A DNA stretch of 30,792 bases from a virus. The stretch is taken from positions 1 through 30,792 of IMG/VR virus record IMGVR_UViG_3300033149_007560; one strand, given 5' to 3'. Below the pieces are notes generated by a model that did no database searches, was not told the origin of the DNA, and saw only the letters and a program-made list of their open reading frames with translations. Made by a program: the position numbers and the translations under genes. Below are positions 4,100-25,068 of this stretch, piece by piece (the first letter of the stretch is position 1; every line of letters starts with the position of its first letter).

Positions 4100-4909
4100 C
4101 TAAGGAATGCTTATAAGCTCACGCATTGCAGCTTCAAGAACACAGTTTCCTGCAATTCTTTCTACTACACGAATACCAATTTGATCTCTTTCCCAAGCAG
4201 TGCCAGCAACATTTGATACGGTGACAGTAATTCTTCTACGATCGCCAAGCCAGTATCCCTGTTTGAAATCTCCAAAAAAGATTGAAGATTCAGGAACCCA
4301 GTTGTTTTCGTAAATAGGATATCCGTGAAATGTGTCAGGTTGTCCTGGAGCAACTGCATCCTGCCAAAGATAACGATTATTGCTATCTTTTATCTTTCTC
4401 ATTTCTCTAATGTTAGTGTTGTGTGCTAAGAAAACTGCATTTCTCCTATACTTTGAAGGCAAAGCATAAATAAGATTTATGATATCGTCAAAGTCTAGGT
4501 TCCCAGAACAAGAAACAGTGCTGATTGAACAACTTGTCAAACCAGTAGGTTGTCCTGTTCCTGATCCTGATGTAATAACTTTGTCTTCTTCCTCTGCAAT
4601 TCTTTCTGAGAAAAGTCGGATAATCAACTGAACAATATCAAAGTCAGTAGCATCTTCTACTAATTCTTCAGAAGTATACATAATAGCTGCTACTTTATAA
4701 GCAGTTAATGTCTTTTCATCAAAATCAGCAGTAGTAGTTGACTTTGTAGCATTTTCAGAAGTCCATCTTACTTGAGGCTTGCTTCCTAATTTAGGAATCT
4801 TCAAAACGTCCCTTTTCATAGTAACGACACGAACTAAATTCCTCATAAGAGTAACTTCTGGAATGTCTCGGATAAGTTCAGCCCTAAATTCATCAGGAAC
4901 TAAATAACC
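4100..4909 (-). CDS. Major capsid protein, HK97 fold, exon 2
   Basis: This exon encodes 269 residues and the stop of an HK97-type major capsid protein. It starts GGYLVPDEFRAELI once joined to exon 1, the typical junction between scaffold domain and capsid core. Further capsid features are ITSGSGTGQPTGL, the E-loop and spine region, WGLG-like YWLGDRR, and the ending AMRELISIP. Without exon 1 the protein would lack its scaffolding domain and have only a TTG start at 4912, inside the intron. Spliced length is 395 residues, normal for the family. The protein forms the head shell after maturation by the upstream protease. Confidence 0.9.
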   Translation of the reverse strand, partial: GYLVPDEFRAELIRDIPEVTLMRNLVRVVTMKRDVLKIPKLGSKPQVRWTSENATKSTTTADFDEKTLTAYKVAAIMYTSEELVEDATDFDIVQLIIRLFSERIAEEEDKVITSGSGTGQPTGLTSCSISTVSCSGNLDFDDIINLIYALPSKYRRNAVFLAHNTNIREMRKIKDSNNRYLWQDAVAPGQPDTFHGYPIYENNWVPESSIFFGDFKQGYWLGDRRRITVTVSNVAGTAWERDQIGIRVVERIAGNCVLEAAMRELISIP

Positions 4910-5600
4910 CAATTATGTTAATCTTATGCTTTCACATAAGTTCGGACTATATCTTTTCGCCTCGTAATTCTTTTACAATCTGATTACTTCTTAGGCGAGC
5001 TTCACGTATAGTCTCTGAGGTGCGTCCTCTTGTTTGAATTGATTGGCATAGTTCTACTAACTCTAGTTCTCTATTGCGATACGGTTTCTTATTTTTATAC
5101 ATTCCTTCTTTAACTCTATTCAATCTACTTTCACAAAACTCTATTATATATCTAGCTCTCTCTTTTTTATTTCCAGTCAGTTCATTCAAAATAGGTTTTA
5201 GTATTCTTAGAACTTTAGCAAGATTTTTTATACAAAGCTTGTAATAAACTTTTGCATTTTTCTTTCCATTATGACTATCTCTAATATACGGATTAACTCC
5301 TAATTCTCTCATTATTCTTTGTGTTTTTTTTATAATAGCAACATCTGTATTAACTATCTGTATTTCTGGTCTAAACCATACATATCCGTGGTTTTTACAA
5401 TCTCTTAATCCTATATATCCTTCTCCATCTATTATTCCTGCGAGCCAACCAATTTTTAAAGAACTTACCTGCTGATTGCCTATTGTTTCATCATTCACAT
5501 TTTTACAATTAGTTAGTAATGAATGCTTTAAGGTGTTCCAGCAAATAGTGAAGTTTAATGACGGCAGTTTTATTTAATGTGCAAATGAAACTTGGGGTTT
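4910..5600 (-). mobile_element. Group I self-splicing intron in the major capsid gene
   Basis: The boundaries are set by base pairing. The 5' exon end UGACGGU (5607-5601) pairs with the internal guide GCCGUCA about 30 nt inside the intron, with the standard U-G pair at the splice site (P1). The nucleotides just before the guide (AACU) pair with the 3' exon start GGUU (P10). A P4/P5-like GCUGGAAC...CCUUAAAGC follows. CUCAGAGACUAUAC (5019-5006) matches the R element and AAGAUAUAGUCC (4955-4944) the S element. A P9 hairpin CUUAUGU-GAAA-GCAUAAG with a GNRA loop comes next, and the intron ends with G at 4910. Length is 691 nt. It encodes its own endonuclease. Confidence 0.9.
4947..5498 (-). CDS. 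LAGLIDADG homing endonuclease encoded in the intron
   Basis: The 183-residue protein carries one LAGLIDADG-type motif, WLAGIIDGEGYIGL (residues 18-31), with the two conserved acidic positions in DGEG. A single motif implies a homodimer. It would cut an intronless capsid gene near the exon junction and drive intron copying. Its 3' end overlaps the intron core: the R element lies inside the coding region and the TAG stop lies inside the S element, so RNA folding and protein coding constrain the same bases. It has no bacterial-type ribosome site that I can see; its ATG is at 5498. Confidence 0.9.
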   Translation of the reverse strand: MNDETIGNQQVSSLKIGWLAGIIDGEGYIGLRDCKNHGYVWFRPEIQIVNTDVAIIKKTQRIMRELGVNPYIRDSHNGKKNAKVYYKLCIKNLAKVLRILKPILNELTGNKKERARYIIEFCESRLNRVKEGMYKNKKPYRNRELELVELCQSIQTRGRTSETIREARLRSNQIVKELRGEKI

Positions 5601-5978
5601 ACCGTCAGCTGCTGTCCCCTCAGAAAGAGCTTTTAAAGCTACATTATCGCCCCTAAGTAAAGCACCAAAGAACTTAACGATCTTCTCCTCTTTACTCATT
5701 TTGGCAACATCAAGTGGCTTTATGTCTTCCTTTGAGAACAATTTCTCCTTCAAAGATTCCCCACCTTTAAGAGCTGATTTGATTCCACTGATCTCCTTTT
5801 TGAGTTCTTTTAAACCAAGATAAGATTCAATTGACTTGGCAGCCTTTTTGATTTCTTCATCATCTGATTCTTCTTCCTCAGTTTCCTCATCAGAAGTTTC
5901 AGTTTCTTCTTCAGTCTCTTCTTCGGTAGTTTCCTCTTTTTCTTCCTCTTCTGCTTGCTTTTTCTTTATTTTACTCAT
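5601..5978 (-). CDS. Major capsid protein, exon 1 (N-terminal scaffold domain)
   Basis: Encodes residues 1-126 of the capsid protein. After a short basic start there is a long Glu/Thr/Asp-rich stretch (about residues 8-44), then an amphipathic helical region and the segment ALSEGTAADG, which in HK97-like capsid proteins directly precedes GYLVP. This part is the delta or scaffold domain, expected to guide prohead assembly and then be removed by the protease. Read without splicing it would end with eight intron-encoded residues (KPQVSFAH) and look like a separate scaffold gene. The ATG at 5978 lies in the 3' end of the protease gene (8-nt overlap). Confidence 0.88.
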
Positions 5979-22181: not shown

Positions 22182-23167
22182 ATATCCCAATTAAATTTAT
22201 TAGTTCCAAAATGACCTTTAAGCGAAGCTTCTTTATAAATTGGTTTATCTAACTCTAGTTCTTTTATGACAGTAGCTACATCATATCCCTTAGTATATTC
22301 GCTTTCTTTTCCGTTTATTTTTACATACAATGGCTCTGCCCTTCCTATCACATAAGCTATCTCTACTAACGCCTCACTATCATCTGTTACTTGCAAATGA
22401 TTAAGAGCAATATGTCTAGCCAAATAAGCTCCACTTCTATCTACTTTAGTAGCATCTTTTCCAGCAAAAGCACCGCCCCCTATCGGAATACTTGGACCAT
22501 ACCATAATACATTTTTTCTTCCTGTCAAACCAGTGTCTGCTTCAAACCCTCCCTTCTTAAAATGAATTAAATTATATGTCGTATTATCGTCAAGAATAAC
22601 CAACCCAGCATAAAGCTTCAAAACATAATCTATAACTTTTAATATATAATCATCTTCTTTCTTTTCTGCTTGATAAGACACAGTTATGTTTTTAATTTTA
22701 TAAGGCACCGTGTTTGTTTTATCTATGGTTATCTGAGCTTTTCCATCTGGAAGTATTTTTTTATCTTCATCAAGTTTATCACATATTCCCTTAACTATAT
22801 CCGTTTCTATAGGCAAACCGCTTATCCCCCTACAAGCATAACCTATGACTATTCCACTATCACCTGCACCTTCGTTAGCCAAATCACTAATTTCAGGCGA
22901 TTGTTCATCTATATAAGTAATAATTCGTTTAAACTTTGAAATATATCCTATTTTTCTATACGTATCCATAGCAATTTTAGCATAATCTACCTTTGCTTTA
23001 GTCGTTATCTCTCCGCCTATTGTTAAAAATCCGTGAGAACCAAATACTTCTACAGCTACCCTTGAATCAGGATCTTGTTTAAGGCACTCATCAAGAATAG
23101 CATCAGCAATGATATCTGTTACCCGATCGGGGTGACCTTTACGACAATACTCAGCTGTTTTAATCAT
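22178..23167 (-). CDS. metK: S-adenosylmethionine synthetase, compact bacterial type
   Basis: At 329 residues it is about 50 shorter than E. coli MetK but keeps the key blocks: RKGHPDRVTDII (His12, Asp14), GGEITT (Glu53), EQSPEI (Gln89), GAGDSGIVIGYA, PDGKAQIT (Asp141, Lys143), GLTGRK (213-218), GGGAFAGKDATKVDRS (230-245) and GHFG near the end. It makes SAM from methionine and ATP. The shortening removes surface loops, for example between IGY and the QSPEI segment. It is coupled by ATGA to the dehydrogenase before it and the epimerase after it. A supply role for the many SAM-using enzymes here is likely. Confidence 0.92.
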   Translation of the reverse strand: MIKTAEYCRKGHPDRVTDIIADAILDECLKQDPDSRVAVEVFGSHGFLTIGGEITTKAKVDYAKIAMDTYRKIGYISKFKRIITYIDEQSPEISDLANEGAGDSGIVIGYACRGISGLPIETDIVKGICDKLDEDKKILPDGKAQITIDKTNTVPYKIKNITVSYQAEKKEDDYILKVIDYVLKLYAGLVILDDNTTYNLIHFKKGGFEADTGLTGRKNVLWYGPSIPIGGGAFAGKDATKVDRSGAYLARHIALNHLQVTDDSEALVEIAYVIGRAEPLYVKINGKESEYTKGYDVATVIKELELDKPIYKEASLKGHFGTNKFNWDI

Positions 23168-25068
23168 ATATATTTTTTATAGCCCTGCTTGTCTAGCAAC
23201 TCATCATTATATTTGTCAGTTGCCTCGAGCACAGGCATTTTAATTTTATATTCTTTAGCAAATTCTAATAATGCTTTAGTGTCCTTAGGCAAGCAATTAT
23301 GAACAATAGCATCTGCTACTACAAAAGTTTGATTTCCTTCAACTTCAAAATTATAAACTTTACCAGAATACAAAGTAATGCTTGTTTTTTTAATTGGGAA
23401 ATACAAAAACTTATCATCAAACCAGCTTGTCTTCCTAAATAATTTCAAGTCTTTTTCTATCTTATCGCCTATTAAATCATTGAACTTTTTAATTTCAGTA
23501 TAATTCCTAATACGAATTGTGAAAACTTTCTTATGATTAATTCCATTTTTATCAATTTTTCCTTCTCTTATACTGATAGTAAATCCTATACCAAGTTTCA
23601 GTAAAATAAGTTTCAATTGATAATAAAGATTTTCAGAAATAGTAGTCATTGAATAAATCCCAGTTGATTTACTACCATCTCCTCTAAAATATCCTTTCAA
23701 AAACTCAGATATATTCGCAGAGTTCATAATCTCATTACTAAGTAATTTTTTATCAGCCATTTCACCACAATGTTGTTTTAGTAAATTACTAACTCTTTTA
23801 TCTGTAAATCTAATAACAGAACAATTACATTTTAGATTCCTAATACTAGATTTAATCCCAAATTCATTCTTTATTATATCAACAACATCTTGAATATAAT
23901 CAATTTCGTTACTATTAAATGCTATACTAATTCTATTTTTTCCCTTTTCTACATTTCCTTCAGCTACAAAATATCCGAATAATCTCATTAAATTATCACT
24001 AAAATGACTTATTGTGAAATCTCTTTTTTCTTTTATTTTTGGCAAAACAATAAAATCTCCTTTTTCTAAATCCTCAGCATCAATCCATTCCAAATCATAA
24101 CTATCTTTTTTATAATTACTCAGTTTTTCTCTTTTATTCCCGTAAAAACTTCTATTCGCTTTTACTGCTAAAACTGGATGCTCACCTGTTAAACCAAATT
24201 CTTCCATTCCTTGACCTCTTATAATAAATAGATTTTCTTTTTCATCATCAGTTTCTCTTTCAAATTTCTGTAAAACCTTTCTCCAAGTTCCATCAATAGT
24301 TAAAACATCATCTCCAACCTCAACATCTTTCGCTTTTTTTACAGAATTATTAACATACATCAATGTATTCGCTAATAAGCATTTCCCCCAATATCCACGC
24401 TTCCCTTTATGCATTATAGTTAAATGAGTTCTTTCTATTCTTTTATCTGCAGCTAATCCAGAAACAACAGCTTCCCACTCCTCTTCTGTAAATCCAACAG
24501 CCATAGCTAAATCATAAAGTTCATTATTCTTAGCGACCTTTACAGAAAACCAAGTATTAGTTGCATATTTAACCATTTCAGCTACCCTTGCTGGAACTAT
24601 TTTCTCATAAGGAGCTAATGGAAGCTGTAAAGCCACATCCTTAGCCACAGAATAGCTTTCATTTGTATATCCAATTATCTGCCGATCAGGAAAAGACATA
24701 TCATTATCAGCAGTTTCTTCTGTTAAAAATTCAGGATTAAAAACAAACTTATGCTGTGAAAACTCTTTTTGAAGCATATCAGTAGTTCCAATCATTACAG
24801 TAGATTTGATTATCACTACTTTATTTCCACTTAATTTGCTTACAGCTTCACGAATAATATTTATATCACAACCTTTCTCTGGAACATAAGGAGTGGGCAA
24901 GCAGATATAAACAAAATCTGCAAAATTAACTTTTTCCATTGATCCCAGTCCTTTTTTATCGTAGTAATATAGCTCTACCTCATATTTTGGTTTTTTTTCA
25001 AAATATCTTTTTAAGGCTCCGCCGACCATTCCAATTCCAATTATCCCTATTTTATACTTTTCTGTCAT
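23164..25068 (-). CDS. UDP-glucose/GDP-mannose dehydrogenase family protein interrupted by an intein
   Basis: The 634-residue precursor consists of N-extein 1-229, intein 230-591 and C-extein 592-634. Exteins: GIIGIGMVGG (NAD loop, 8-17), VYICLPTPYVPEKG, IIKSTVMIGTT, FNPEFLTEETA and MVKYATNTWFSVKVAKNNEL are the usual UDP-sugar dehydrogenase blocks, and GYWGK + CLPKDTKALL makes the catalytic cysteine site. After splicing the enzyme has 272 residues, lacking the C-terminal nucleotide-sugar domain that makes family members about 400 long. It would oxidise a UDP- or GDP-sugar to the uronate if active without that domain or with a partner. Tight ATGA coupling to metK. Confidence 0.9.
   Translation of the reverse strand: MTEKYKIGIIGIGMVGGALKRYFEKKPKYEVELYYYDKKGLGSMEKVNFADFVYICLPTPYVPEKGCDINIIREAVSKLSGNKVVIIKSTVMIGTTDMLQKEFSQHKFVFNPEFLTEETADNDMSFPDRQIIGYTNESYSVAKDVALQLPLAPYEKIVPARVAEMVKYATNTWFSVKVAKNNELYDLAMAVGFTEEEWEAVVSGLAADKRIERTHLTIMHKGKRGYWGKCLLANTLMYVNNSVKKAKDVEVGDDVLTIDGTWRKVLQKFERETDDEKENLFIIRGQGMEEFGLTGEHPVLAVKANRSFYGNKREKLSNYKKDSYDLEWIDAEDLEKGDFIVLPKIKEKRDFTISHFSDNLMRLFGYFVAEGNVEKGKNRISIAFNSNEIDYIQDVVDIIKNEFGIKSSIRNLKCNCSVIRFTDKRVSNLLKQHCGEMADKKLLSNEIMNSANISEFLKGYFRGDGSKSTGIYSMTTISENLYYQLKLILLKLGIGFTISIREGKIDKNGINHKKVFTIRIRNYTEIKKFNDLIGDKIEKDLKLFRKTSWFDDKFLYFPIKKTSITLYSGKVYNFEVEGNQTFVVADAIVHNCLPKDTKALLEFAKEYKIKMPVLEATDKYNDELLDKQGYKKYI
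23296..24381 (-). mobile_element. LAGLIDADG intein at the catalytic cysteine of the dehydrogenase
   Basis: Intein 230-591 (362 residues). It begins with Cys230 (CLLANTLMYVNN), contains the block B TGEH at 294-297, and ends VVADAIVHN before the +1 cysteine, so it is a class 1 splicing domain with Cys1, block B His, terminal His-Asn and Cys+1. Between them lie two endonuclease motifs: LFGYFVAEG (363-371) and FLKGYFRGDG (456-465). The +1 cysteine is the catalytic residue of the host enzyme, so the enzyme can work only after splicing. Confidence 0.93.

Follow-up and report, generated by a model that had tools for sequence, protein, structure and literature searches.

Group I introns in capsid genes have been described before, both in mycobacteriophage LittleE, where splicing was demonstrated by RT-PCR and N-terminal sequencing (PMC3706429), and in crAss-like phages, where the genes for the major capsid protein (mcp) carry up to four intervening segments each (PMC7886860). 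Dense introns have also been reported for Jug phages (PMC12363816). Here, we analyzed a viral DNA record of 30,792 nt (hereafter the window, i.e., the whole stretch at its full length). Our data support the view that it contains a single HK97-type mcp, predicted to be interrupted by a group I intron whose position is the very junction that an earlier note on this DNA had named. The LittleE intron (PMC3706429) resembles the one in the window by its insertion into an HK97-type mcp, by the conserved GGY.VP motif, and by a LAGLIDADG-type endonuclease; in both cases, exon 1 ends in U and the intron ends in G. We re-derived the LittleE junction, which lies between GGT GGT and TAC and corresponds to an intron of 808 nt. 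This site is located one codon downstream of the site in the window (between GGT and GGT TAT). Differences relate to the LittleE endonuclease, which is encoded on the opposite strand, and to the actinobacterial host. The crAss-like phages differ from the window's phage in phage order and capsid family; however, a P5-P4 segment of the window is recognizable in the mcp intron of cr118_1 (L106), with 86% identity over 41 nt. The region after R in the cr118_1 intron is different, as an extra hairpin precedes the 3' strand of P3.

The mechanical ORF list shows three minus-strand ORFs between 5978 and 4100, i.e., 5978-5574 (134 aa), 5498-4947 (183 aa), and 4912-4100 (270 aa). Excision of 5600-4910 from the minus strand yields an in-frame HK97-type capsid protein of 395 aa, as the earlier note had claimed, with TAADGGYLVPDEF as the peptide stretch across the junction of exons 1 and 2 (Table 1). 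Profile searches assigned the mature domain in exon 2 to HK97-type capsid proteins (PF05065, Phage_capsid, 5.8e-60; TIGR01554, 5.4e-71). As the match to PF05065 begins at the second residue of exon 2 and the match to TIGR01554 at profile position 113, the intron is placed at the beginning of the mature domain of the capsid protein. The earlier description of the locus as an apparent scaffold gene followed by a truncated capsid gene is apt, given that exon 1 stops just before this domain. Among the capsid relatives in IMG/VR, the closest found were contigs with exon 2 identities of 80, 76, and 68%. In these three contigs and in about 70 further capsid relatives, ALSEGxAADG and GYLxPDEF are contiguous, and the mcp genes that were read out in full consist of a single ORF of 369-402 aa. 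The intron-less relatives, with flanks identical to those in the window, thus bear out the expectation that ALSEGTAADG and GYLVPDEF normally adjoin, and their unbroken ORF fixes the junction. We further scanned all permitted pairs of U at the 5' end and G at the 3' end near both borders; joining 5601 to 4909 received the top score and reproduced the sequence of the relatives without insertion or deletion. No other phage was found to carry an intron at precisely this mcp site. An intein in mcp was considered and rejected, as a stop codon follows eight codons into the insertion in the frame of exon 1.

Table 1. Features of the interrupted mcp and its predicted intron (positions in the window), followed by intron sites in the mcp of relatives.
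Feature	Position	Strand	Remarks
mcp exon 1	5601..5978	(-)	126 aa; acidic N-terminal part, delta/scaffold-like region, end ALSEGTAADG
mcp exon 2	4100..4909	(-)	269 aa + stop; mature HK97 capsid domain, start GYLVPDEF
Group I intron (predicted)	4910..5600	(-)	691 nt; U is the last base of the 5' exon, G the last intron base
P1 5' strand, exon UGACGGU	5601..5607	(-)	
P1 3' strand/internal guide GCCGUCA	5559..5565	(-)	AACU (P10) just before
P3 5' strand CUUCAC	5548..5553	(-)	
P4 5' strand UUGCUG (P element)	5539..5544	(-)	
LAGLIDADG homing endonuclease ORF	4947..5498	(-)	183 aa, GTG start, one LAGIIDGEG motif
P4 3' strand CAGCA (Q element)	5470..5474	(-)	
P6 3' strand ACCU	5018..5021	(-)	partner AGGU 5470-5467; by inspection
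R element CCUCAGAGACUAUACG	5005..5020	(-)	includes P7 5' strand GACUAUA (5013-5007)
P3 3' strand GUGAAG	5000..5005	(-)	
P8 hairpin UCGCCU ... AGGCGA	4957..4998	(-)	
P7 3' strand UAUAGUC (S element)	4945..4951	(-)	endonuclease ORF has its stop codon here
P9 hairpin, GAAA loop	4923..4940	(-)	
Relatives' mcp, between SEG and TAADG			L030, L031, L049, L075
Relatives' mcp, MAAI codon			L081; L075 nearby
Relatives' mcp, between GNLS and FDD			L066
Relatives' mcp, KRG-Y			L055
Relatives' mcp, TA-F			L049
Relatives' mcp, QTAI			L055, L075, L081

On the RNA level, P1, P3, P4, P6, P7, P8, and P9 are all present and arranged in group I order, with the P, Q, R, and S elements of the P3-P4-P6-P7-P8 core in sequence. 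P1 comprises 7 bp with a U.G pair at the splice site, P10 is formed by GGUU with AACU, and the terminal intron G is located at 4910. All elements that had been named beforehand (P1, P10, R and S, the GAAA loop of P9, and the terminal G) were recovered on the minus strand. In an unconstrained fold with the P6 loop trimmed, P1, P4/P5, P7, P8, and P9 formed, and forcing P3 cost 1.1 kcal/mol. A descriptor of P3/P4/P7/P8 matched the real segment, compared to 6 of 300 shuffles. The folding energy of the whole intron was not unusual (z = -1.07), and we therefore left it out of the evidence. By inspection, P7.1/P7.2 are absent between P7 and P3, in contrast to the introns at other sites of the relatives' mcp, and we tentatively consider the intron IB-like. 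At the Rfam threshold, the covariance search proposed in the earlier note technically had the outcome that the note had listed as refuting (no group I intron hit), but only because the endonuclease ORF separates the two halves of the core. Rfam searches of the whole window and a search of the phage's own record with RF00028 revealed no match, and the isolated intron segment matched RF00028 in two halves, in correct order, with 23.3 bits (3' half) and 13.3 bits (5' half), i.e., below the gathering threshold of 50. Roughly 440 nt of coding sequence for the endonuclease, situated in the P6 loop, break the model into two weak halves. Missing a gathering threshold is a matter of detection convention and not a biological criterion, and the intron-less alleles together with the P3 covariation in sibling introns (see below) are stronger evidence than the sub-threshold Rfam result.

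The ORF inside the intron, which the earlier note had overlooked, matches LAGLIDADG_3 (PF14528) with 3.1e-6 (27.8 bits at a cut-off of 22.5) and phrog_5046 with 2.4e-13. It begins before Q, fills the P6 loop, and ends inside S, so that protein and ribozyme share sequence; the GNQQ of the endonuclease, for instance, is encoded by GGCAATCAGCAG. No close relative was identified among 50,697 phage records or in a close search of IMG/VR, and I-AniI was the only match in the PDB (E 0.03). An AlphaFold2 model calculated without alignment was uninformative (pLDDT 44) and was discarded. Among 380 Patescibacteria genomes, we could identify three relatives of the endonuclease. Two of them (L123 and L124) reside in 23S rRNA genes, within group I introns in which a group I core was detected and the NQQ start is likewise encoded by Q. 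These introns differ from the window's by their rRNA host gene, and their homologous endonucleases are only about 25% identical to it. The third relative (L122) lies within a group I intron that interrupts a major capsid gene of the SU10 type (PF17236, 1.3e-62), and its endonuclease is 31-32% identical. As in the window, its ORF begins before Q and ends in S, the same R 16-mer is present, and P7.1/P7.2 are missing; however, it interrupts an unrelated capsid profile family at another site, and both P3 (UCGAGC/GCUCGA) and P8 differ. Sequence data show that related introns and endonucleases have moved into 23S rRNA genes of Patescibacteria and, taking the siblings below into account, into the capsid genes of several families that are unrelated to each other.

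We searched IMG/VR for sibling introns using the exact R 16-mer CCTCAGAGACTATACG alone. It was present in 68 stretches, and S followed at the expected distance in 45 occurrences. P3 offsets were fixed from the introns of the window and L122 and then applied to the siblings. P3 was complementary in six of six pairs in 27 of 29 introns and in five of six pairs in one more (25 different sequences). In 2000 shuffles of P3 partners, a mean of 10 and a maximum of 17 of the 29 introns reached at least five pairs, compared to 28 observed. Compensatory changes in core helices among the relatives were found for P3, and the P3 helix covaries in a homologous intron family that includes the window. The downstream exons of 30 siblings were scanned with PHROGs (E up to 0.01), and 22 matched a 'major head protein' (phrog_1328, 2522, 9953, 267, 1357, and 371/4523), the weakest match being that of L173 (E 0.0014). 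No named replication or packaging enzyme was found among these 30 exons. Four further capsid exons were recognized by Pfam, which applies to L142 and L174 (SU10), L183 (Phage_capsid_4), and L146 (Phage_capsid_4, below the cut-off). Six siblings remained without gene assignment, and one IMG/VR 'viral' contig with the R motif of the window (L187) carries a COX1 exon upstream of its intron; given this exon, L187 is probably a mitochondrial or cellular sequence within the virus collection. In total, major capsid genes, from at least seven profile families besides that of the window, are interrupted by 26 of the 33 siblings that were examined, a count based on one exact word, on the longest open frame as exon, and on dereplication of identical sequences only, and to be read with the fact that PHROGs labels capsid genes better than many other genes. 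As a control, the R word of IA-type introns was searched, which delivered 54 exons. Roughly half of them matched major-head families, and single exons belonged to DNA polymerase, RNA polymerase, tail sheath, and topoisomerase. A capsid preference specific to the intron lineage of the window is weakened by this control, since IA-type introns are also often found in capsid genes, and capsid genes seem to be a niche that is generally common among the group I introns of environmental phages. We lean moderately towards the view that the lineage is widespread and resides mainly in the major capsid genes of phages unrelated to each other (at least eight profile families including that of the window) and in 23S rRNA genes of Patescibacteria. 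In this view, capsid genes, rather than the replication genes known from the classical examples, would be a main niche for group I introns of environmental phages, as the control with its high share of capsid exons also suggests. A prior description of a capsid-centred spread of this lineage over unrelated capsid families was not found in open-licence papers.

In relatives of the window's phage, mcp is interrupted by additional group I introns at six more positions (Table 1), with Rfam scores of up to 92.5 bits and two or three introns in a single mcp of some relatives. The splice sites are approximate for the second intron of L075 and for the last introns of L081, L055, and L075. We rejected these introns as representatives of the window's element: those inspected exhibit an extra hairpin between R and the 3' strand of P3 (group IA-like), which is absent from the window's intron and indicates a different intron type. 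L075 shows two Rfam matches within one 1.8-kb interruption, possibly reflecting tandem or nested introns. Outside mcp, group I intron matches were observed in L119 (2054-2309), L120 (256-505), and L118 (1727-1927). Those of L119 and L120 are located about 0.7-1 kb downstream of mcp at the same gene of unknown function. Another match (83.9 bits) was observed in a Pacearchaeota bin (L109, G050:C1:35250-35510) in a region without 80-aa ORFs, perhaps rRNA.

Taken at face value, the ORFs of the locus could represent two genes, i.e., a scaffold ORF of 134 aa and a capsid ORF of 270 aa starting with TTG at 4912, with an unrelated endonuclease ORF in between and no splicing. Both ORFs are indeed open and mechanically listed, and scaffold and capsid are encoded separately in some phages. 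However, we regard this arrangement as extremely improbable: the closest relatives carry a single unbroken ORF with the same flanking residues, the start of exon 2 is unconvincing because its TTG consists of the last three intron bases, and the stretch exactly between the ORFs holds a complete core of the group I type, the P3 of which covaries. The weak covariance-model score could also point to a decayed intron or a free-standing homing endonuclease gene (HEG) insertion that no longer splices and leaves the phage defective, or to an assembly chimera. This is very improbable as well, as P7, P3, P8, the U.G pair of P1, and the terminal G are conserved, the 183-aa HEG frame is open, both exons have kept their reading frames, and no correction is required to obtain the joined protein. 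We are thus highly confident that the best overall explanation is a mobile group I intron with a LAGLIDADG ORF in mcp, for which both splicing and homing are predicted.

Regarding the host, a 78.6-kb contig of Candidatus Magasanikbacteria contains chromosomal genes (an ATP synthase operon, DnaG, and several tRNA synthetases, identified by reading the proteins), followed by a prophage that is syntenic with the window, harbors 13 orthologues of its genes, and has an uninterrupted mcp. Together with the endonuclease relatives, this prophage indicates a Patescibacteria host, and the window's phage probably infects this phylum. An archaeal host (Pacearchaeota) of a phage with a genuine group I intron is unlikely in comparison. 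Among genomes, the nearest capsid relative (70% identical) does belong to an 18.9-kb contig of a Pacearchaeota bin, but this contig looks wholly viral, making its binning uncertain; no clearly chromosomal integration was found other than that in Magasanikbacteria, and endonuclease relatives occur in Patescibacteria genomes (in a search that covered that phylum alone). As to further contents of the record, structural genes in the window (178-30792) stand amid many glycosyltransferases, sugar epimerases, methyltransferases, and radical SAM proteins, as well as a SAM synthetase gene (metK, 3.3e-70). This sugar/SAM gene cargo is unusual for a phage, and much of it is common to the Magasanikbacteria prophage. 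A UDP-glucose/GDP-mannose dehydrogenase-like gene (23164-25068, minus strand) is interrupted by an intein with a LAGLIDADG domain just before the conserved CLPKD motif (PF14528, 1.9e-18; Intein_splicing, 5.1e-8; TIGR01443 C-terminal region), which represents a second self-splicing element in the 31-kb phage record.

According to the proposed mechanism, a mobile group I intron would have inserted into the most conserved stretch of mcp, where the mature capsid domain starts. Based on the intact core and the exact junction, two guanosine-initiated transesterifications are predicted to remove it from the mcp pre-mRNA and to restore the full-length capsid protein, with P1 setting the 5' splice site and P10 together with the terminal G setting the 3' splice site. 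The predicted endonuclease may cut intron-less mcp alleles, so that the intron would be copied in during mixed infection. Ordinary annotation would miss this capsid protein, since Rfam reports nothing above its threshold and the locus reads like a scaffold ORF followed by a truncated ORF for the capsid. The capsid gene often serves as a phage marker and is highly expressed, so that an intron within it would have to be spliced efficiently at late stages of infection. Movement of homing elements between unrelated genes can be studied in the sibling families as a natural data set, and these families extend the range of group I introns to phages with Patescibacteria as probable hosts.
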